Shown here one piece after another: positions 3,073 to 22,835 of a DNA stretch of 56,927 bases (position 1 is the first letter of the stretch; every line of letters starts with the position of its first letter). The stretch comes from Caryophanales bacterium (GTDB taxonomy: Bacteria; Bacillota_I; Bacilli_A; RF39; UBA660). Both the position numbers and the translations under genes were made by a program. The notes under the pieces were generated by a model, which was not told the DNA's origin, ran no database searches, and was given only the letters and a program-made list of their open reading frames with translations. Location of the stretch: NCBI GenBank assembly GCA_016288635.1, contig JAEEKZ010000047.1:1-56927 (forward strand), given 5' to 3'.

Positions 3073-4044
3073 ACTTATAGATTCAAAATATTCATTAATT
3101 ATATTTAAGTACTCTTCCCTATTATTAGCATGACATAATTTAACCTTTGTCTCTTTAGCATTAGGAAGCCCTTTTAAATAATACATAAGCATACTTCTAA
3201 GTTCTAATGTTGCTTCAACCTGTGATTTATCGCTATATAAATAATCCATATGCTGAACCATCATATTATGAACGTCCTCAATTGAATGTGATGATGGTTT
3301 TTTACCATCTAAATATTCTACTGTTTCTTTAATTAACCACGGATTACCAAGTATTCCCCTACCAATCATTACCGAAGTACATCCTGTTTCATCAATCATT
3401 CTTTTAGCATCTTGATATGTTACTATATCACCATTTCCAATTACTGGAATACTAACATTATCCACAACTTCTTTAATAATACCCCAATCGGCCTTACCGG
3501 AATAGCCTTGTGATCTAGTTCTAGCGTGAATAGCTATAGCACTAGCTCCATTCTTTTCAATTATTTTAGCTACCTCTACAGCATTAATACTTTTTTCATC
3601 CCATCCACTTCTTATTTTAACTGTAACAGGACAACTAACACTTTTTACAACAGCTTTAACTATTTTACCAATCTTTTCTGGATCCTTTAATAAAGCTGAA
3701 CCAGCTTGTGCTCTAAGAGCAACTTTGGGAACCGGACAGCCCATATTAATATCAATAATATCAGGATGCATGTTTTCTTCAACTAGCTTAGCTGCTTTTA
3801 CAAAATCATCTACATCCGAACCAAATATTTGTTGAGAAATTGGCCTTTCCATCTCATCCATTTTTAGCAAATCAAAAGTTTTCTTACTACCATATACTAA
3901 AGCTTTATCAGAAACCATTTCAGCTACAACTAAAGCAGCACCCATTTCCTTACATATCTTACGATAAGAAGTATTAGTTACTCCAGCCATTGGAGCAACA
4001 ACAACTTGGTTTTTTAGTTTAACATTACCAATTTTCCATTCCAT
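3064..4044 (-). CDS. dus: tRNA-dihydrouridine synthase (DusB type)
   Basis: A 326-residue FMN- and NADPH-dependent enzyme that reduces specific uridines of tRNA. It begins with the TIM-barrel motif VVAPMAGVTNTSYR. It carries the catalytic cysteine in DINMGCPVPKV (near residue 103), the HARTRSQGYSG motif with FMN-contacting His/Arg, and phosphate-binding VIGNGDI and MIGRGILGNPW. A helical tRNA-binding domain fills about 245-326. The length is typical. SD GGTGA lies five bases before the ATG, and its own terminator overlaps its stop, so it is probably monocistronic. The exact target position cannot be read from sequence. Confidence 0.93.
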   Translation of the reverse strand: MEWKIGNVKLKNQVVVAPMAGVTNTSYRKICKEMGAALVVAEMVSDKALVYGSKKTFDLLKMDEMERPISQQIFGSDVDDFVKAAKLVEENMHPDIIDINMGCPVPKVALRAQAGSALLKDPEKIGKIVKAVVKSVSCPVTVKIRSGWDEKSINAVEVAKIIEKNGASAIAIHARTRSQGYSGKADWGIIKEVVDNVSIPVIGNGDIVTYQDAKRMIDETGCTSVMIGRGILGNPWLIKETVEYLDGKKPSSHSIEDVHNMMVQHMDYLYSDKSQVEATLELRSMLMYYLKGLPNAKETKVKLCHANNREEYLNIINEYFESISNK

Positions 4045-4081
4045 CTAGTTCACCCTCAAACTTCCTTTATATTATCAAAAT

Positions 4082-4108
4082 AAAAAAAGAATATCAAATA
4101 ATATTCTT
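4082..4108 (-). terminator. pduL terminator
   Basis: Minus-strand hairpin AAGAATAT / ATATTCTT with a 6-base loop and seven T, abutting the stop codon. It closes the rmuC-to-pduL unit. Confidence 0.8.
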
Positions 4109-4668
4109 TAATATTCTAAATCTATTATATCTCCAGAATTAAGTGCAAAAGCTGCAGCTTCATCTGTATCAATATGTGTTTCAAAGAAACCATCATCACT
4201 TACTTTAAACACAGCATTTAATGTTCCTCCTTTTATACCAGGAACTTTTAATGTACATGGCTGTTTATCCTTAATTCCGAGTTCAGCTGCTTCTTTTGTA
4301 TTCATATGAACATGTCTATGAGCAATAATACATCCTTCAATAGTAATTTCTGCTTTTGGTGTAACTAAAGTGATTTTTTCACTATTAGCAACATCTCCAC
4401 TATCTCTAACTGGTGGATTTAAGCCAAATTTTCTAGCATCCGTTTTAGATATTTCAATTTGATTATATTTTCTAAATGGTCCTAATATTCTAACATTAGG
4501 TATTTCTGTCTTTTCTGTTTTCAAAGTTAATGTTTGATTACTAGCAAATTGACCAATTTGATTTAAATCGTTCTTCTTAGTTAATTCCTCATCAAATAAT
4601 AACTTATATGTTTCTTCTGTTAAATGAACATGTCTATTACTAACCCCAACTGATACTTTTGTTTCCAT
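4108..4668 (-). CDS. pduL: Phosphate propanoyl/acetyltransferase, PduL family
   Basis: A 186-residue enzyme that moves an acyl group between CoA and phosphate (acetyl-CoA to acetyl phosphate, or the propionyl equivalent). Two zinc-binding halves are visible: VSVGVSNRHVHLTEE near the N-terminus and CIIAHRHVHMNTKEA near residues 113-128. The ARKFGLNPPVRDSGD and VPGIKGGTLNAVF segments are typical. There is no microcompartment-targeting extension and no microcompartment gene nearby, so it probably serves acetate fermentation as a Pta substitute, with acetate kinase elsewhere. It is the last gene of a tight unit, 11 bases after the degenerate phosphatase, with SD AAAGGAG. Confidence 0.92.
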   Translation of the reverse strand: METKVSVGVSNRHVHLTEETYKLLFDEELTKKNDLNQIGQFASNQTLTLKTEKTEIPNVRILGPFRKYNQIEISKTDARKFGLNPPVRDSGDVANSEKITLVTPKAEITIEGCIIAHRHVHMNTKEAAELGIKDKQPCTLKVPGIKGGTLNAVFKVSDDGFFETHIDTDEAAAFALNSGDIIDLEY

Positions 4669-4679
4669 TCTCTACTCCT

Positions 4680-5300
4680 TTAATTATTTATACTTAAATT
4701 CTTTATATCAACAAATTCTTTACCTTTATATGTAATTTCATATATATTACATAATTGCCCTGTATTATCTAATATAATTTTATCATTTTGAGTTAAAACT
4801 AAACTCTCATCTAAATTATAACCCACCTCAATATAATTAATTAAATAAGCTAAAATACATCTTTTAGGCATAAATACAGCAACCTGATTATAACCATCTT
4901 CTAATACTTCATCAATAAATGCCGTGACTCTTTTACTACACTCATTTAATGACTCTCCCTTTTCAAGTTTAAAATCAAAATTCCTTTCTTGGAAATAGCT
5001 TAGCATCTTGATACTTTTACCCTCTAGATTACCTATTTTACAATCATATATTTTTTTATTAACATTTATAAGTAAATCTTTTTCATAAGCTAAGTTCTTA
5101 GCTAACTCAATTGATCCAAAACTCATATCGCTATATATTGCCTCAATATTATCAAATTCTTCCATCTTAGCAAGTTTTTTAGATACCATATCTCCCTTTG
5201 GATTAAGTGTTCTAAACTTCTTCTTTATTTCAATATCGGTTTCATTAGTAAAAACGATATTATTACTTAATTCTGTACTTGCAATTAAAAATATTTTCAT
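4680..5300 (-). CDS. Degenerate histidine-phosphatase-superfamily protein
   Basis: A 206-residue protein with the outline of phosphoglycerate-mutase-like phosphatases but not their active site. The first strand reads MKIFLIASTELSNN where active members have a LIRHGET-type motif, so the nucleophilic His is absent. A NPKGDMVSKKLA segment fits the usual LTPxGxxQA helix, and AIYSDMSFGSIELA fits xYSSPLxRAxxTA. GNLEGKSI and GESLNE fit the later insert. The second catalytic segment reads VAVFMPKRCILAYL instead of VSHGGVIRxLL. It was probably recruited as a non-catalytic binding protein. The ATG overlaps the upstream TGA by four bases, so it is co-expressed with the membrane protein before it. Confidence 0.6.
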   Translation of the reverse strand: MKIFLIASTELSNNIVFTNETDIEIKKKFRTLNPKGDMVSKKLAKMEEFDNIEAIYSDMSFGSIELAKNLAYEKDLLINVNKKIYDCKIGNLEGKSIKMLSYFQERNFDFKLEKGESLNECSKRVTAFIDEVLEDGYNQVAVFMPKRCILAYLINYIEVGYNLDESLVLTQNDKIILDNTGQLCNIYEITYKGKEFVDIKNLSINN

Positions 5301-11872: not shown

Positions 11873-11895
11873 ATATTAAATATCTAATTTTTTTT
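11867..11895. terminator. Bidirectional terminator between murC and the giant gene
   Basis: Palindrome AATTAGATA / TATCTAATT with T runs on both strands. The murC TAG is in the left arm and the convergent gene's TAA abuts the other end. Confidence 0.8.
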
Positions 11896-14800
11896 ATCTT
11901 ATAATTCTTCCCTGCTTATATGCATTTTCGTATTCTAGTAATTCTTTTAATGCTCTTTTATCTCTATCAATAAAGTCTTGATATGTTCTACCATCACTAC
12001 ATACACAATAATACCAGTCATTGTTACAAACAAAATATACTACATTTTCTATATTGTTTACTAGACTAATTAAATATCCTGATGCATTAGATGATATATA
12101 TTCAAAAGGCATTCCATCTAAAGCTAATTTAACAGCATATATTCTATTAATAACATTCAACATATCATCTGTATTAGTTAAACATCTAACCTCATCTCTT
12201 CCTGGTGGATAATAAGGCATATTTTCTTCGGAAAAATCAAGAGGAACAAATGGTCTATCAGTTGCTGTAGTTGCTTGAACAACAGCATTATCTTTAGAAA
12301 TTGATGAGTAAAAATATTTCCATCCTTCATGAAGGCTTTCAACACCTAAATTAGCTTTTGGTTCATTTTCAAATCCATTTCTAGCAGAAATAAATACATT
12401 TTGAATAGGATATTCTGAAACACTACTTTCAGCGATTAAATCTTTAGCTACTTCATATGAGGCATTAACTAAAAACTGAGCAGTACTTGATAATGCCACA
12501 GGTATAGAGGATAACTCACTCATAAATACAGAATTACCATGTCTAAATCCAGATTCTTTTCCTAAATACTGTCCCGTACTTGCATCTTCAAATCGTATAT
12601 GAAAACCATTTTCATTTTCCATGCAAAAATCGTAAAGTTCTTCACCTACTCCACCAACACGCATACAAGAATCTACTCTTTCACCATGAGTAAAATTACA
12701 TGGATTAGTAAAATTAGCTACAACAGCTCTTATTTTAACAGAACCAATTTTATATACTTTATTAAATGTTGGAATAGTTACACTTTGTCTTTCAAATGCT
12801 TTTAATGTCCACTCAACCGATTCTCTTAATCTTTGATCTCCTTGCGTTTTACGATTTGCAGATAAAGCTCCCGGATTTTCATCAATTAATCTTGCATCTT
12901 CAGGAGTTAATATTTGCGAATATATATCAGAAGTTCTAGAATATCCTTTTGTTTTCTTGAATATAGAAGACAAGGTCATTACTCCGCCTCTAACATGTTT
13001 TTTCTTCTTTCTTTCCTCTTCTTCTTTTCTAAGAATTGGCATAAAATAAGACATAAAAGCAGCAATTTGTCTTTCATCTATTTCAAAATCCAAGCAATTA
13101 TTATCATTAATAAACTTAACCAACTCACTTGGTAATTTATGTAGTTTTCTCTTAGACATTATCTCTTTTAATTTTTGATAATAATATTCATTTTCAAGTA
13201 TACCCTTTAAAACATCTAATCTTAAATAAGACAATATTTTACAAATAGATAAACTTGATTTACCAGGTGAATAATTTTTCTTTAATTCATCATCTTTTTC
13301 AGTTAGTATTTTTTCTCTTATATCTTCATACCAAGCTGGTGATTCATTTTTAACCTTCGAAATTATTTCTAAACCTAATAATCTAAATTCAAACATTTTA
13401 GATGTAACAATATTAGTATCATTAGTTAATTTTGCATGTTTATTTTTATTAAACTTAATTAAATCTTGGATTAAATCGTCACTATAACCTTTTTCATGAC
13501 ATTTTCCTATCAAGACATTTACAAAACTTGTTTCATTAGGAAGAGTAACATCTTTTTCTAAAAAATAACTAAAGATAACCTGTTTAGCACTATTTTCATC
13601 AATTGATTCAATTAGTTTAATTTCTCTTCCAACATCATATGTATTTTTATATTCATCTCTTTTTTTATCAACATAATAATCCATAATATATTTTAGTATT
13701 TTTGAATATTTTTCAGGATCTCCATTGTTGATTTTATAAATAACAAGTTCTAGGAATTTTCTAGGATTACTTTTATATTTAAGGTCTATCTTTGCACCCA
13801 AATCCTTTTCAAGCATTTCAAAGAATACTCCATTTAGACTACGAGCAACATCACTAACAAGCTCACTATCTACTTTATTACCTTGAATTTGGTTTAATAG
13901 TATAGCAAAACTATCAACTATTGGTGCAAATTTTATAGAAAACTCATGTTGTTTAATATTATCATAAGCTGAATCTAAATCATCCATAGTATATCTTTTG
14001 TTAGGAAATAAAGCTATTAGTTTATCAAATAAACTTTCATTTAAACTAAGTAATTCTAATATGTTTTTATCATCAATATAATATAATAATTCTTTTCCAA
14101 CAATTGCTTTTAAGGCTTCAACATTATGCTTATTTAACTTCTTTTGCTTTACAACAAAATCCAAATAATATATTAATTCATCTGACTCTAAAGCATTTAC
14201 AAATAAAGCATTATTTTTTAAATATTCACGAGCAAAAATAAGTTCACGAAATTTTTTGTTTTCTAAAAATAAACTTCTTAATACCGATTTATTATAAGAC
14301 GACGAAACTTCCTCGTTATTAAAATATTCAAGAAATAATTCTTCATAAAAATCAGGATCATTTTTTCTAATTGCCCTAAATGAATTAGTAACAACAGTTC
14401 TTGTTTCATTAGCAAAAATATTTATATATTGTTTAAAATACGTTTTTATATTTTCAACACTATTAGTACTTACAAATATCTCAAATACTTTTAATGAGAT
14501 AGTGTCTGATGTGATAATTATTTCTCTAGACGGATCTGATTCTAAACTTTTCTTCAATAATTCAAGTATTCTATTATTAAATATATCCCCTTCAAATAAA
14601 TGAACCACCCTAGCATTGGGATTTCTAAGAACTGCTTCAATTATTGAAGCATCCCCTTCCTCACAACATATTTCTTTTCTATTTATCTTGTCAATATACG
14701 CTTTATCACTTGATTCAATATGTCCTCTAATTCTATCAACACACATTGAAGAATACTTTCCACTTCTTAATAAGTGTTCTATATTACCGGCTTCAATTAA

Positions 14801-15703
14801 TGCGTCAACAAATTCGTCATTATATAGATTATCTAATTTCTCTTTTGGATAATACTTTATAAAAGAACGAAAACTATAATCATTTTCTTTCATGTCTTTT
14901 ATTAGTTTTTCTCTTAAGTCTTCATCACTTATTAAATTAAAACCAACCATTTCATTAGCAAATAAATAAATTCCACTTGCATATAGCAAATCATAAATAT
15001 CAAATCTAGCAGAATAATCTAACTTGTTAACGAAGAAACGAAATTTACCTAATATGTCGTTACTATCCTCATTAATTAAATTAAGAAAATCTTTTGGAGC
15101 ACCCTCAGAAAACACCATGCGCATTTTATTAACAAATTCACTTTCAAATAAAATAGCATTTGCATCAAGTATTTTTCTAGTTATATAAACAATCATTATA
15201 GGATGGACATCTTTGATATTTGCAACAACCATATTAACATAATCATCCATATTTTCTGGAGATATAATAGATTCAAAATTAATTGCATCAAGCTTTTTTT
15301 CTTTAATTAAAGTTGCAAGATTAGCAACATCAAATACAATAGCGTTAGCAATATCAAACTTATCTTTAATTCCATCATACACATCTTTTAATTCTTTAAT
15401 ATGTGTTTTATTATCCGTAGATTTTAAACACTCTACCATTGTAGATGGACCATCGTAAGCATATAACAACCTGCATTTATTATATTGAAGTTTTAGTTCT
15501 TCATCATCACCTAAAATATCTATATCTCTTGAAAGAAAAAAATCAATAAAATCAAAGAATTCTTTTTTCAAAGTTTTTCTTCTTTTTTTAAACTCTTCAA
15601 TTACTTTTTTTCTTAATTCTTCATTATAAATTAGATAAGTTTTTTCTAGATCAGAAAAAAACAAATTATTATCACTTAATTGTTGTAGTATTTGTTTATC
15701 CAT
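11894..15703 (-). CDS. Giant 1269-residue protein of unknown function, SOS-box controlled
   Basis: Not recognised as a known family. About 870 N-terminal residues are helical and charged, with no signal peptide or membrane segment, and look like helical-repeat material. A basic link (EEEERKKKKHVRGG) follows, then a more compact C-terminal region from about 890. That region has TLSSIFKKTKGYSR, a VKIRAVVANF strand, a DSCMRVGG motif with Cys1013, GFHIRFEDA, GFRHGNSVF at 1052-1060 and NVFISARNGF. The Cys-x-Arg-x-Gly plus FR-x-GN layout suggests a distinct enzymatic or binding domain; I note only a loose resemblance to the PcfJ-like layout. A perfect LexA box lies in its promoter. SD AGGTGA supports the ATG. 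It is transcribed alone. Confidence 0.75.
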   Translation of the reverse strand: MDKQILQQLSDNNLFFSDLEKTYLIYNEELRKKVIEEFKKRRKTLKKEFFDFIDFFLSRDIDILGDDEELKLQYNKCRLLYAYDGPSTMVECLKSTDNKTHIKELKDVYDGIKDKFDIANAIVFDVANLATLIKEKKLDAINFESIISPENMDDYVNMVVANIKDVHPIMIVYITRKILDANAILFESEFVNKMRMVFSEGAPKDFLNLINEDSNDILGKFRFFVNKLDYSARFDIYDLLYASGIYLFANEMVGFNLISDEDLREKLIKDMKENDYSFRSFIKYYPKEKLDNLYNDEFVDALIEAGNIEHLLRSGKYSSMCVDRIRGHIESSDKAYIDKINRKEICCEEGDASIIEAVLRNPNARVVHLFEGDIFNNRILELLKKSLESDPSREIIITSDTISLKVFEIFVSTNSVENIKTYFKQYINIFANETRTVVTNSFRAIRKNDPDFYEELFLEYFNNEEVSSSYNKSVLRSLFLENKKFRELIFAREYLKNNALFVNALESDELIYYLDFVVKQKKLNKHNVEALKAIVGKELLYYIDDKNILELLSLNESLFDKLIALFPNKRYTMDDLDSAYDNIKQHEFSIKFAPIVDSFAILLNQIQGNKVDSELVSDVARSLNGVFFEMLEKDLGAKIDLKYKSNPRKFLELVIYKINNGDPEKYSKILKYIMDYYVDKKRDEYKNTYDVGREIKLIESIDENSAKQVIFSYFLEKDVTLPNETSFVNVLIGKCHEKGYSDDLIQDLIKFNKNKHAKLTNDTNIVTSKMFEFRLLGLEIISKVKNESPAWYEDIREKILTEKDDELKKNYSPGKSSLSICKILSYLRLDVLKGILENEYYYQKLKEIMSKRKLHKLPSELVKFINDNNCLDFEIDERQIAAFMSYFMPILRKEEEERKKKKHVRGGVMTLSSIFKKTKGYSRTSDIYSQILTPEDARLIDENPGALSANRKTQGDQRLRESVEWTLKAFERQSVTIPTFNKVYKIGSVKIRAVVANFTNPCNFTHGERVDSCMRVGGVGEELYDFCMENENGFHIRFEDASTGQYLGKESGFRHGNSVFMSELSSIPVALSSTAQFLVNASYEVAKDLIAESSVSEYPIQNVFISARNGFENEPKANLGVESLHEGWKYFYSSISKDNAVVQATTATDRPFVPLDFSEENMPYYPPGRDEVRCLTNTDDMLNVINRIYAVKLALDGMPFEYISSNASGYLISLVNNIENVVYFVCNNDWYYCVCSDGRTYQDFIDRDKRALKELLEYENAYKQGRIIR

Positions 15704-15744
15704 TCTATCACCTATCTTCTTCTATTATTTTATCACATTTTATT

Positions 15745-15774
15745 AATATATACCATACGAACATCTGTTCGCAA
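15745..15774 (-). promoter_or_regulatory. SOS-type promoter of the giant gene
   Basis: Minus strand: -35 TTGCGA (15774-15769) and a -10 at TATATA (16 bp) or TATATT (18 bp). The LexA box overlaps the -35 and spacer, the usual place for repression. Confidence 0.6.
15758..15771. promoter_or_regulatory. LexA/DinR (SOS) box
   Basis: The sequence CGAACATCTGTTCG (minus strand CGAACAGATGTTCG) is a perfect match to the B. subtilis LexA consensus CGAAC-RNRY-GTTCG. I saw no second copy upstream of another gene in this window. It lies 55-68 bases upstream of the giant gene's ATG. Confidence 0.85.
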
Positions 15775-15801
15775 TATAAAAGCACATATTGATATGTGCT
15801 T
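15774..15801 (-). terminator. valS terminator
   Basis: Minus-strand hairpin AAGCACATAT / ATATGTGCTT with a weak U-tract (TTTTATATT). It overlaps the valS stop and ends where the next promoter begins. Confidence 0.65.
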
Positions 15802-20642: not shown

Positions 20643-22835
20643 TTAAGGATTCTCCTCAGGAGCAACATAGTCCTTATCCCACCAAGCATACAATGAGCCA
20701 GTGTAACTAAATTCGGTATTCATTCCAGCTTTTATCTCTCCAGTTGGATAAACTACCAAATAAGAAGCTCCACCACCTCGTCTAGAACAATATCCTTTAA
20801 AAGTATAACCACTTCTAAAATCTGTTGGCATATCCCATTCAGTTTCTCCTGCAGGAGCAATATCTGTTTTAAGATTATATATTGGTATATAATTATTACC
20901 ATCTATCTTATACCAGCCATCATCATAACGTTCATAAATTGCATTATCTCTTGTAAGCTCAATATCTATTTTATAATTTGAGAATTTTTGAGGATTGCTG
21001 CTATTTGGCTTAATGTAAATTGTTTTAGGTATTCCCGTGAATACAACTTCACTAAATCCATCAGTTGGTAAATCAACACTTTCTATTTTAGCGTCATTTA
21101 TTTTTATATATAATTTTAAATCACCACTAATACTTCCATCTAATTTTTTAATTGTCATTCTAAATGGTTGTGAAGATGAACCCGTTGGAGTATTAACGAA
21201 TAAATCAAGATTCTTATTATTTGTTATATATTGTTGACTAAATTCTCCATCTAATACCAATGATTTTAAACCATCTTCATCAAAATCAACACGTATACCA
21301 CTATCATAACCATTATCACTATTCGCATAGAATAAATCATCATTAATGCTAATAGGAATATATTTCTTCAAATCAGTAATAACATGATATGGTTTTTCAG
21401 CTGAACCATCAGATCTTATTCCATTTACAGTTTCATATACATAAGTATTGTATTTAAGGGAAATTGCAGGTCTTACACCAATTTCACTTTCCACATCAGA
21501 AGAAACCAAATAACCATAATCAGAAACAGAATAAACGCTAGCTGATGTTCTATCAAAATCAACTGGAGACATAGTCCAAAAACCATTATAACCGTCTATC
21601 AAATAATTATAGCCAGCTTTTGGATCACGACTATTATCATAAATCATATATACTTCATCTGCAGTAATTGTTGCGCCAGATATACCTACATTCTCTAATA
21701 ATTCATTACCTTGAACATAGTTAATTGTATGTGACACAGTGTATCTATCAGCCTGTTGTGAACAATACATTGTTTCTGGAGTATTAATACTGGCTTGTGT
21801 TGCAGTTTGACTAACTAAATCCTTGAAACAAACATAATTTCCTACACTTGGTCCACTGGCAACTTTTGCCCATTTTGAAGAGCAATTTGTTGTATCACCA
21901 AACAATACAGGCGTATTAGTACTTGGGTTCCACTCAATCTCAACAGGTTCTTGATCAGCCAACTGACTAAAATATGAAGTCATATCCGTATGATCTGTAT
22001 AAATTACAGTTTCTGTATTTGCATACATTTTTTTGACTGACTCAACAATATTTCCCAATCTTCTTTTGGGTCCATAACTAGTTACAGTTCCATCGCCAAT
22101 CATTGGTTCAGATCTATCATTACACCAATGTGTATCTTCAACGAAATAACTGACCGGTTTAATATTATCTATTAGAAACTCATCGATTTTTGCTTTTAAC
22201 ATTGAATTTTGCTCGACGGTTGTTTCTGGTAATTTATAAGTATAACCAACATATTCTTTTAAAGGAACATTATTAAAATATTCATTATATTTTGTTTTTC
22301 CAATACCATCTTTGTTTGTAACCGTCTTACACGATCCGTTTTCATCCGGTAAACCAACATATAGCAACTTAACGCCACCTGTTTCAGTTGTTCTTATTAT
22401 CTTCCAACATCTATCAGCAAATATAACATTATTATGCGTTGCAGTTTGATAATAAAAGAATACTGGGCTATTATAATCCATATAGTCTTTCGAAAACTTA
22501 TATACTTCATAGTTTTCATTTCTATGATGGTTTATACAATACTCGCCATCTTCTCCACTATTTTTATGACAATCAGGATGCTGATCTCTCTCATATAAAG
22601 CTATTAAAGCATCATACTTCTTAGAAATAACAGCAGAAAGCAATAAACCATCTTTACCTTTTACTTTTGCATTTAAATCTTCTCTAATATCTTCTGCTGA
22701 TTTTTGTACATTTCTTCTAGTATTAATATACTTTTCAAGTAAAGCAATCATTAATAGTAAAAACAAAACAACAAAAGTAATTATTATTGAGCTGGATATA
22801 AATCCCTTTTTATTTAATTTTTTTCTATTTTTCAT
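20643..22835 (-). CDS. Large secreted/anchored protein with pilin-like leader and InlB-type repeat
   Basis: A 730-residue protein. The N-terminus is a prepilin-like leader, KKLNKKGFISSSIIITF, followed by a hydrophobic stretch to about residue 34, but the Glu usual at +5 is Ser. The extracellular part begins with Cys-rich segments and FADRCWKIIRTTETGGVKLLY (about 135-160), a motif common in surface proteins of gut Firmicutes. Further on are WTMSPVDFD, SDVESEIGVRPAISL and beta-rich sequence. The C-terminus has one InlB-type (Listeria-Bacteroides) repeat unit with FRSGYTFKGYC and LYAWW. It follows the pilin-like gene by ten bases. Adhesion or a pilus-tip role is inferred. Confidence 0.65.
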   Translation of the reverse strand: MKNRKKLNKKGFISSSIIITFVVLFLLLMIALLEKYINTRRNVQKSAEDIREDLNAKVKGKDGLLLSAVISKKYDALIALYERDQHPDCHKNSGEDGEYCINHHRNENYEVYKFSKDYMDYNSPVFFYYQTATHNNVIFADRCWKIIRTTETGGVKLLYVGLPDENGSCKTVTNKDGIGKTKYNEYFNNVPLKEYVGYTYKLPETTVEQNSMLKAKIDEFLIDNIKPVSYFVEDTHWCNDRSEPMIGDGTVTSYGPKRRLGNIVESVKKMYANTETVIYTDHTDMTSYFSQLADQEPVEIEWNPSTNTPVLFGDTTNCSSKWAKVASGPSVGNYVCFKDLVSQTATQASINTPETMYCSQQADRYTVSHTINYVQGNELLENVGISGATITADEVYMIYDNSRDPKAGYNYLIDGYNGFWTMSPVDFDRTSASVYSVSDYGYLVSSDVESEIGVRPAISLKYNTYVYETVNGIRSDGSAEKPYHVITDLKKYIPISINDDLFYANSDNGYDSGIRVDFDEDGLKSLVLDGEFSQQYITNNKNLDLFVNTPTGSSSQPFRMTIKKLDGSISGDLKLYIKINDAKIESVDLPTDGFSEVVFTGIPKTIYIKPNSSNPQKFSNYKIDIELTRDNAIYERYDDGWYKIDGNNYIPIYNLKTDIAPAGETEWDMPTDFRSGYTFKGYCSRRGGGASYLVVYPTGEIKAGMNTEFSYTGSLYAWWDKDYVAPEENP

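Follow-up and report, generated by a model that had tools for sequence, protein, structure and literature searches.

The stretch of DNA analysed here (the window) comprises positions 1-56,927 of contig JAEEKZ010000047.1 from the Caryophanales bacterium assembly GCA_016288635.1, and carries on its minus strand a gene for a protein of 1269 residues, P0001, that is preceded by an exact LexA operator. On the gene strand, the end of valS is followed by a terminator-like hairpin, a pair of -35- and -10-like hexamers lying over the operator, and the ATG of P0001, with an AGGTG stretch seven bases 5' of this start; downstream, a Mur ligase gene is the convergent neighbour. The original prediction that the gene is transcribed alone is reasonable, because the hairpin separates it from valS and the Mur ligase gene converges on it. 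Three terminator-like sites were found in the region near the P0001 gene, compared to 0.4 in shuffled sequences. The two sequence motifs noted earlier in the protein were both confirmed and are listed with the other features:

11894-15703, minus strand: gene of the 1269-residue protein P0001, ATG start, intact frame, no internal stops
11897-13174, minus strand: C-terminal GNAT-like domain, residues 844-1269, according to an AlphaFold2 model
12524-12550, minus strand: GFRHGNSVF (residues 1052-1060), located at a beta hairpin, with R1054, G1056 and N1057 identical across all 70 sequences
12650-12667, minus strand: CxRxGG loop (CMRVGG, residues 1013-1018); Cys invariant in 70 of 70 sequences
13064-15703, minus strand: helical, solenoid-like N-terminal part, residues 1-880, according to an AlphaFold2 model
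15745-15750, minus strand: -10-like hexamer TATATT, consensus match only, spacer of 18 from TTGCGA
15758-15771, minus strand (the gene strand): LexA operator CGAACAGATGTTCG, reading CGAACATCTGTTCG on the plus strand, an exact Bacillus-type SOS box
15769-15774, minus strand: -35-like hexamer TTGCGA, overlapping the operator, consensus match only
15780-15801, minus strand: terminator-like hairpin between valS and the P0001 gene, 9-pair stem with T-rich tail

The operator had been described as a perfect LexA box, and this description holds. Its first base lies 68 bp upstream of the ATG of the intact 1269-codon gene, and it is the sole exact CGAACN4GTTCG in the 1,142,344 bases of the genome (89.5% complete), for which a dinucleotide model predicts 0.035 occurrences per genome and 0.005 in the 150-bp regions preceding 1,100 assumed genes. 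By count only this exact box is notable, because inexact matches occur genome-wide at or below chance, with 2 sites of one mismatch (2.5 expected) and 45 of two mismatches (71 expected); such imperfect boxes therefore did not enter the count evidence. Scored with a matrix derived from 22 recA boxes of the taxon the window box reaches 17.0, compared to a maximum of 11.8 in 3,000 random 260-bp stretches of the window, and it is the only site in the window that scores at least 12. Table 1 of PMC9578287 gives the same operator consensus for B. subtilis and S. aureus. The proposed overlap with the promoter was found insofar as the operator overlaps the TTGCGA-18-TATATT pair, but the promoter itself is a consensus match only: as such pairs are no commoner in the region than in shuffled sequences (25 compared to 32.7), the hexamers prove nothing.

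LexA is encoded in the genome (TIGR00498, 217.6 bits, over the cut-off), as is RecA. One box lies 81 bp upstream of recA, another is found 5' of a Y-family polymerase gene, and lexA itself is preceded by CAAACAAATATTTG with a matrix score of 14.6. Relatives of P0001 occur in 26 genomes of the taxon, and recA was found in 24 of these. The recA promoters of 23 genomes (22 that were whole enough, and the genome of the window) were scanned, and 19 of them contain a box with at most two mismatches and 22 a box with at most three, compared to 1.6% (the window box itself counted) and 24%, respectively, of random 320-bp stretches. In those 22 genomes the box precedes the chosen start by 75-88 bp, or by 48 bp in one case, and the boxes score 12.4-21.4 by their own matrix and 10.4-21.3 when each is left out in turn. 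The matrix omits L120, which has no box, and L134-L137, which are fragments of split recA genes from two genomes. Since lexA is present, similar boxes precede recA, lexA and the Y-family polymerase gene, and the box in the window is an exact match without a second one in the genome, LexA control of the P0001 gene appears well supported and, judged from the DNA sequence, very likely. The gene shares the operator type and its promoter-overlapping position with the Bacillus-type SOS regulon (lexA, recA, Y-family polymerase), but differs from it in that nearly all relatives of P0001 lack the box; to our knowledge, P0001 also resembles no known SOS protein.

P0001 belongs to an undescribed protein family that so far comes from one order of mostly gut-derived Bacilli. 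The earlier statement that the protein cannot be placed was borne out at the sequence level: it has no match in Pfam or NCBIfam, none to any PADLOC-DB (2023) family up to E 10, a single one in PHROGs (E 0.13), and nothing convincing in the PDB by sequence. A limited search of titles and abstracts of the open-access literature retrieved no description of the family. The genome itself contains three copies, namely the window copy and two paralogues on contigs C8 and C52. Of 98 genomes from the taxonomic family, 6 (the own genome included) yielded members in a single-sequence search, and a profile search detected members in 67 of 385 genomes of the order. A phylum-wide draw yielded matches in 5 of 392 genomes, four of which belong to the own taxonomic family, the fifth match being weak, partial and interrupted by an internal stop. 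When genome contigs were searched, P0001 alone retrieved no relatives and alignment A3 retrieved 46 loci; these named relatives stem from metagenome assemblies, many of them from animal gut or rumen, and are labelled Bacilli, Erysipelotrichaceae, Bacillales, Tenericutes and, once, Clostridiales. The phages, plasmids and viral contigs searched contained no relatives. Some loci carry tandem copies (three in L046, two each in L037 and L070). The tree was built quickly, has many poorly supported forks, drew a warning about long branches and does not contain the members found later (L138 onward); it places the C8 paralogue as nearest relative of the window copy (43% over 400 C-terminal columns; Shimodaira-Hasegawa-like approximate likelihood-ratio test 90). 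In its locus (L011 3104-11517), this paralogue is flanked by a presumably mutS-like gene on one side and by presumably nusB-like and xseA-like genes on the other.

Most close relatives of the window copy have a companion. In clade 1, to which the window copy belongs (defined by A3 scores of 250 bits or more), 38 members have 300 bp of sequence on either side, and 32 of these possess a small partner gene, which follows the giant gene in 23 cases, precedes it in 8 and is fused to it in 1; examples are L011 9532-9759 and L013 6883-7170. The most frequent arrangement is an overlap of 4 bp. In the fusion, L058, the partner domain corresponds to residues 1365-1448 of a 1451-residue protein (E 8.5e-21). 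Outside clade 1, the partner accompanies 6 of 46 members. A search for the partner in the 385 genomes gave 17 places with E <1e-8, and 16 of these adjoin a family gene. The exception (G266:C4, L220) has the partner at 4779-4997, after a 397-residue open reading frame (ORF; 3575-4768) that lacks a Pfam match and is presumably SGNH hydrolase-like, judged by a motif. Two of six weaker places were read and are ordinary cold-shock proteins (E ~1e-25 to the Pfam cold-shock domain, CSD). The partner profile (alignment A10, 23 of 39 distinct partners) matches these two CSD proteins of the taxon colinearly (hhalign probability 84.4%, E 7.1e-6), but one CspB sequence at only 18%. Pfam and NCBIfam contain no convincing match (one of 23 partners reached E 0.028 with Pfam CSD), and of nine PDB profile matches five are cold-shock proteins, all weak (E 0.045-0.26). 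Cold-shock domains bind nucleic acids through the motifs RNP1 and RNP2. The partner shares their profile but differs in these signatures, as the aromatic KGFGFI and VFVH are not kept in the alignments read. It is therefore called cold-shock-like here, and binding of single-stranded nucleic acids should not be assumed for it.

The family was further scanned for LexA boxes, using the first start codon of each open frame as gene start. The scan included 110 distinct members, 108 of them with at least 150 bp of upstream sequence. A strong box, with a score of at least 11 and comparable to the recA boxes, occurs in 2 of the 108: in the window copy and in L042, where AAAACATTTGTATG (score 14.4) lies 81 bp upstream of a 1554-codon gene. 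The next-best family promoters score 10.1, 10.0 and 8.9, and the two paralogues in the own genome have no box (-0.3 and 2.9). Since the partner precedes the giant gene in eight clade-1 members, nine promoters of partner-first units were scanned apart, and none has a box (best score 2.0). Among control ORFs 11 of 504 score at least 11, a rate that is inflated because the set includes loci selected for their boxes (L019-L029) and one recA gene of the matrix. A damage-induced family, as the original prediction implied, is not supported by these counts. As strong boxes are restricted to 2 of 108 members, the refutation criterion of the original prediction assigns the switch to the window copy and not to the family; the predicted SOS control is sporadic rather than a family trait.

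Other LexA boxes were encountered along the way. Near family genes, strong boxes are located in L032 (score 17.9), before a presumably DinD-like gene, and in L069 (score 18.1), before a Y-family polymerase-like gene. On contig C27 of the own genome, a candidate SOS gene for a 585-residue protein with pentapeptide-like repeats (L023 578-2335) has the box CGAACATTTATTTG at L023 2389, 54 bp upstream, with a score of 15.5. On contig C8, a 62-residue ORF with a hydrophobic stretch (L021 2213-2401) follows CGAACGAATATTTG at L021 2165 (score 11.7); in position and length it is reminiscent of SOS cell-division inhibitors like YneA.

The C-terminal domain, which the original prediction could not place, is GNAT-like in its predicted fold. 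Residues 844-1269 were modelled by AlphaFold2 from 70 sequences with a mean predicted local distance difference test score (pLDDT) of 91.9 and a predicted template-modelling score (pTM) of 0.89; the underlying alignment A4 (70 rows) omits L058 because of its length and L057 as a near copy of L054. In a Foldseek comparison with the PDB, nearly all of the 50 matches listed are GNATs, the best being 3tcv (E 1.3e-4, probability 1.00), followed by GNATs including GCN5 and NatD. VIA-align superposed 1qst (Z 8.0, root-mean-square deviation (rmsd) 3.5, 136 residues aligned) and 3shp (Z 8.0, rmsd 4.4, 127 aligned) on model residues ~136-306, which correspond to a core at ~975-1149 of the protein. A further match, to the half GNAT of 4nf1 (Z 7.4, 81 aligned), covers model residues 327-421, or ~1170-1264 of the protein, and is comparable to the situation in tandem-GNAT enzymes. 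As Z values of this size may reflect a common arrangement, the assignment relies on the uniform match lists and the strand order. Seven residues (G1007, C1013, R1054, G1056, N1057, R1169 and E1254) are invariant in all 70 C-terminal rows and Y1165 is kept in 69. The predicted core thus superposes on GNAT acyltransferases such as GCN5, NatD and RimL, but P0001 differs from these enzymes by lacking a Pfam match, by its own invariant set (G1007, C1013, RxGN, R1169, E1254) and by an additional helical N-terminal part of 880 residues. We regard the domain as a confidently predicted GNAT-like fold; it is not filed as a GNAT enzyme, because the acetyl-CoA loop signature is missing at its usual place. 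Homology to PcfJ, considered because of a motif and two viral PcfJ-like (PF14284) models among the fold matches listed (ranks 6 and 14, E 4e-3 and 1e-2), was not supported (hhalign probability 0.2%, with a thin profile of five PcfJ sequences).

The long helical N-terminal part anticipated from the sequence was also recovered in the predicted structure. The AlphaFold2 model of residues 1-880, computed from 32 sequences (alignment A5, 32 of 45 N-terminal parts), is almost wholly helical, with a pLDDT of 80.9 and a pTM of 0.55. All ten-residue blocks of residues 511-880 reach a pLDDT of at least 85, and values are near 45-50 around residues 111-180. Modelling the two parts separately thus yielded a GNAT-like fold for the C-terminal one, but the N-terminal model has no specific fold match (the lowest E is 1.5e-2 in Foldseek, the highest Z 7.9 in VIA-align). 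Near the third paralogue, on contig C52, L012 2666-6298 encodes a protein of 1210 residues, P0002, without Pfam match. At the N-terminus, its profile is weakly similar to that of the family (hhalign 33%), but it ends in another, unplaced domain. P0002 may represent a further type of effector built on such a solenoid.

Several properties set the window copy apart. It has no adjacent partner gene, which makes it one of six partner-less clade-1 members; in the same genome, the C8 paralogue has a partner and the C52 copy has none. Furthermore, of 24 strongly conserved positions in the C-terminal domain it has changed six (T1010V, R1049K, N1055H, N1062S, R1065S and D1134S), where the median is 1. 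This number ranks as tied third among the 70 rows and is the highest in its clade. Across these rows, N1062 is conserved in 68, R1065 in 61 and D1134 in 67. By sequence, then, the window copy is a divergent, companion-less, LexA-boxed paralogue, and, given its six changed positions and the missing partner, a drift towards a new target or a non-catalytic role is probable. That its target has been altered owing to the loss of these residues and of the partner might be put at an even chance.

The interpretation we favour, held with slightly less than even confidence, is that P0001 represents a LexA-boxed, companion-less paralogue of a two-gene unit that is usually made up of a solenoid/GNAT-like and a cold-shock-like protein, and that it functions as a transferase or acyl-CoA binder. 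In the usual clade-1 unit, the giant gene and the small cold-shock-like gene overlap or abut. LexA bound to the operator over the -35 hexamer would keep the P0001 gene off, which from the operator sequence is highly probable. RecA filaments trigger self-cleavage of LexA, and upon this cleavage the gene would be switched on alone; such a release on DNA damage is only a little less probable than the repression itself. The solenoid could then hold a macromolecular target, to which the C-terminal domain would transfer an acyl or similar group, unless it binds an acyl-CoA-like ligand instead. We put forward this action on a solenoid-held macromolecule tentatively, as it might well be otherwise. As the outcome, the physiology of the damaged cell would be altered. 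The original interpretation is partly supported: LexA control and the lack of placement by sequence are retained, a damage-induced family is not, and the suggested role as a repair, checkpoint or anti-phage effector may or may not apply.

A number of observations weigh against this interpretation. The family as a whole is not linked to LexA (2 of 108 members boxed), and the genus is represented by one genome, so that the comparison of boxes covers paralogues and other family members but no ortholog. The match to GNATs is structural and modest, with template-modelling scores (TM-scores) of only 0.2-0.5 among the matches listed: 3tcv aligns with TM-scores of 0.21 (query) and 0.35 (target) at an rmsd of 7.5, GCN5 with TM-scores of 0.24 and 0.52, and VIA-align Z values below 8 may reflect a merely common arrangement. 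The acetyl-CoA loop signature of GNATs, [QR]xxGx[GA], was found between strand 4 and helix 3 in none of the 70 sequences. A string of this form is present in the CxRxGG loop of 36 of the 70, which by structural alignment corresponds to the helix 1-2 region, and it may or may not bind phosphate there. No GNAT family is among the 25 listed of the 26 Pfam families for the 70 C-termini, and the scattered weak Pfam and PHROG matches of these C-termini are chance-like. Finally, the changes N1062S, R1065S and D1134S may have rendered the window copy inactive.

The C-terminal domain could instead be a GNAT-derived, non-catalytic binding module and P0001 a damage-induced scaffold or decoy. The absence of the acetyl-CoA loop signature from its expected place in all 70 rows would be in line with this, as would the long helical N-terminal part and the loss of N1062, R1065 and D1134 from the window copy. 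However, this copy keeps the conserved polar residues C1013, R1054, N1057, R1169, E1254 and Y1165, a set more typical of an active site or a ligand site, and we consider a mere module to be rather unlikely. A different role for the partner is assumed if the giant protein is a toxin-like effector that the partner restrains, with LexA restraining the partner-less window copy so that it is released only in damaged cells. GNAT-fold toxins are known, and toxin-titled entries (9ils and 7byy) rank 18 and 44 among the Foldseek matches listed. Several features would suit an effector of this kind: 32 of 38 clade members have the partner close by, mostly overlapping; of the three copies in the genome, the only one with a strong box stands without a partner; and the family is patchy, multi-copy and sometimes tandem in its occurrence. 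Yet the variable order of the partner and its one fusion suit a subunit of a complex no less than an antidote, L042 carries box and partner together, and none of the five other partner-less clade members scores 11 or more. As only 6 of 46 members outside the clade have the partner, the third copy in the own genome lacks both partner and box, and PADLOC gave no match, a toxin seems improbable.

Doubts about the switch itself must be weighed against its sequence. The box might be a chance or decaying operator before a gene that in practice is not regulated by damage, as boxes are lacking family-wide, inexact ones are no commoner than chance in the genome, and the single genome of the genus allows no ortholog comparison. 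An exact palindrome over a -35-like hexamer, unique in the genome and expected 0.005 times in promoters, is difficult to reconcile with this explanation, and the same operator class is found before recA and lexA; we thus give it little weight. Even less probable is that P0001 is a DNA-repair factor in the narrow sense. Besides the LexA box, such a function could be indicated by the nearest paralogue, which starts 61 bp after a presumably mutS-like gene in the same genome, but no family match to a nuclease, helicase, ligase or polymerase was obtained from Pfam or NCBIfam, and a comparison of 54 loci revealed no repair-type neighbour that is shared by more than three of them. These neighbours include a presumably xseA-like gene (c18) in L011, L052 and L069 and a presumably priA-like gene (c20) in L017 and L015 (L060 being a second record of L015).

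If the solenoid/GNAT-like paralogue is indeed under LexA control, it would add a giant protein of an undescribed family to the SOS regulon. This family now has a predicted fold, a set of invariant residues and a genetically linked partner, which renders its function directly testable. Should the partner be a control subunit, the window copy would exemplify a protein-controlled effector that has been rewired to a DNA-damage switch. A bolder version, to which we assign a low probability, posits a new two-gene effector class in gut Bacilli, in which a giant solenoid/GNAT-like enzyme is governed by its cold-shock-like partner and the window copy, having shed this partner, by LexA instead. An SOS operator would in that case have replaced protein control, and DNA damage alone would release the effector, for example in growth arrest or a damage- or phage-triggered response.

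Elsewhere in the window, positions 20643-22835 encode a 730-residue protein without Pfam match at E 1e-5.

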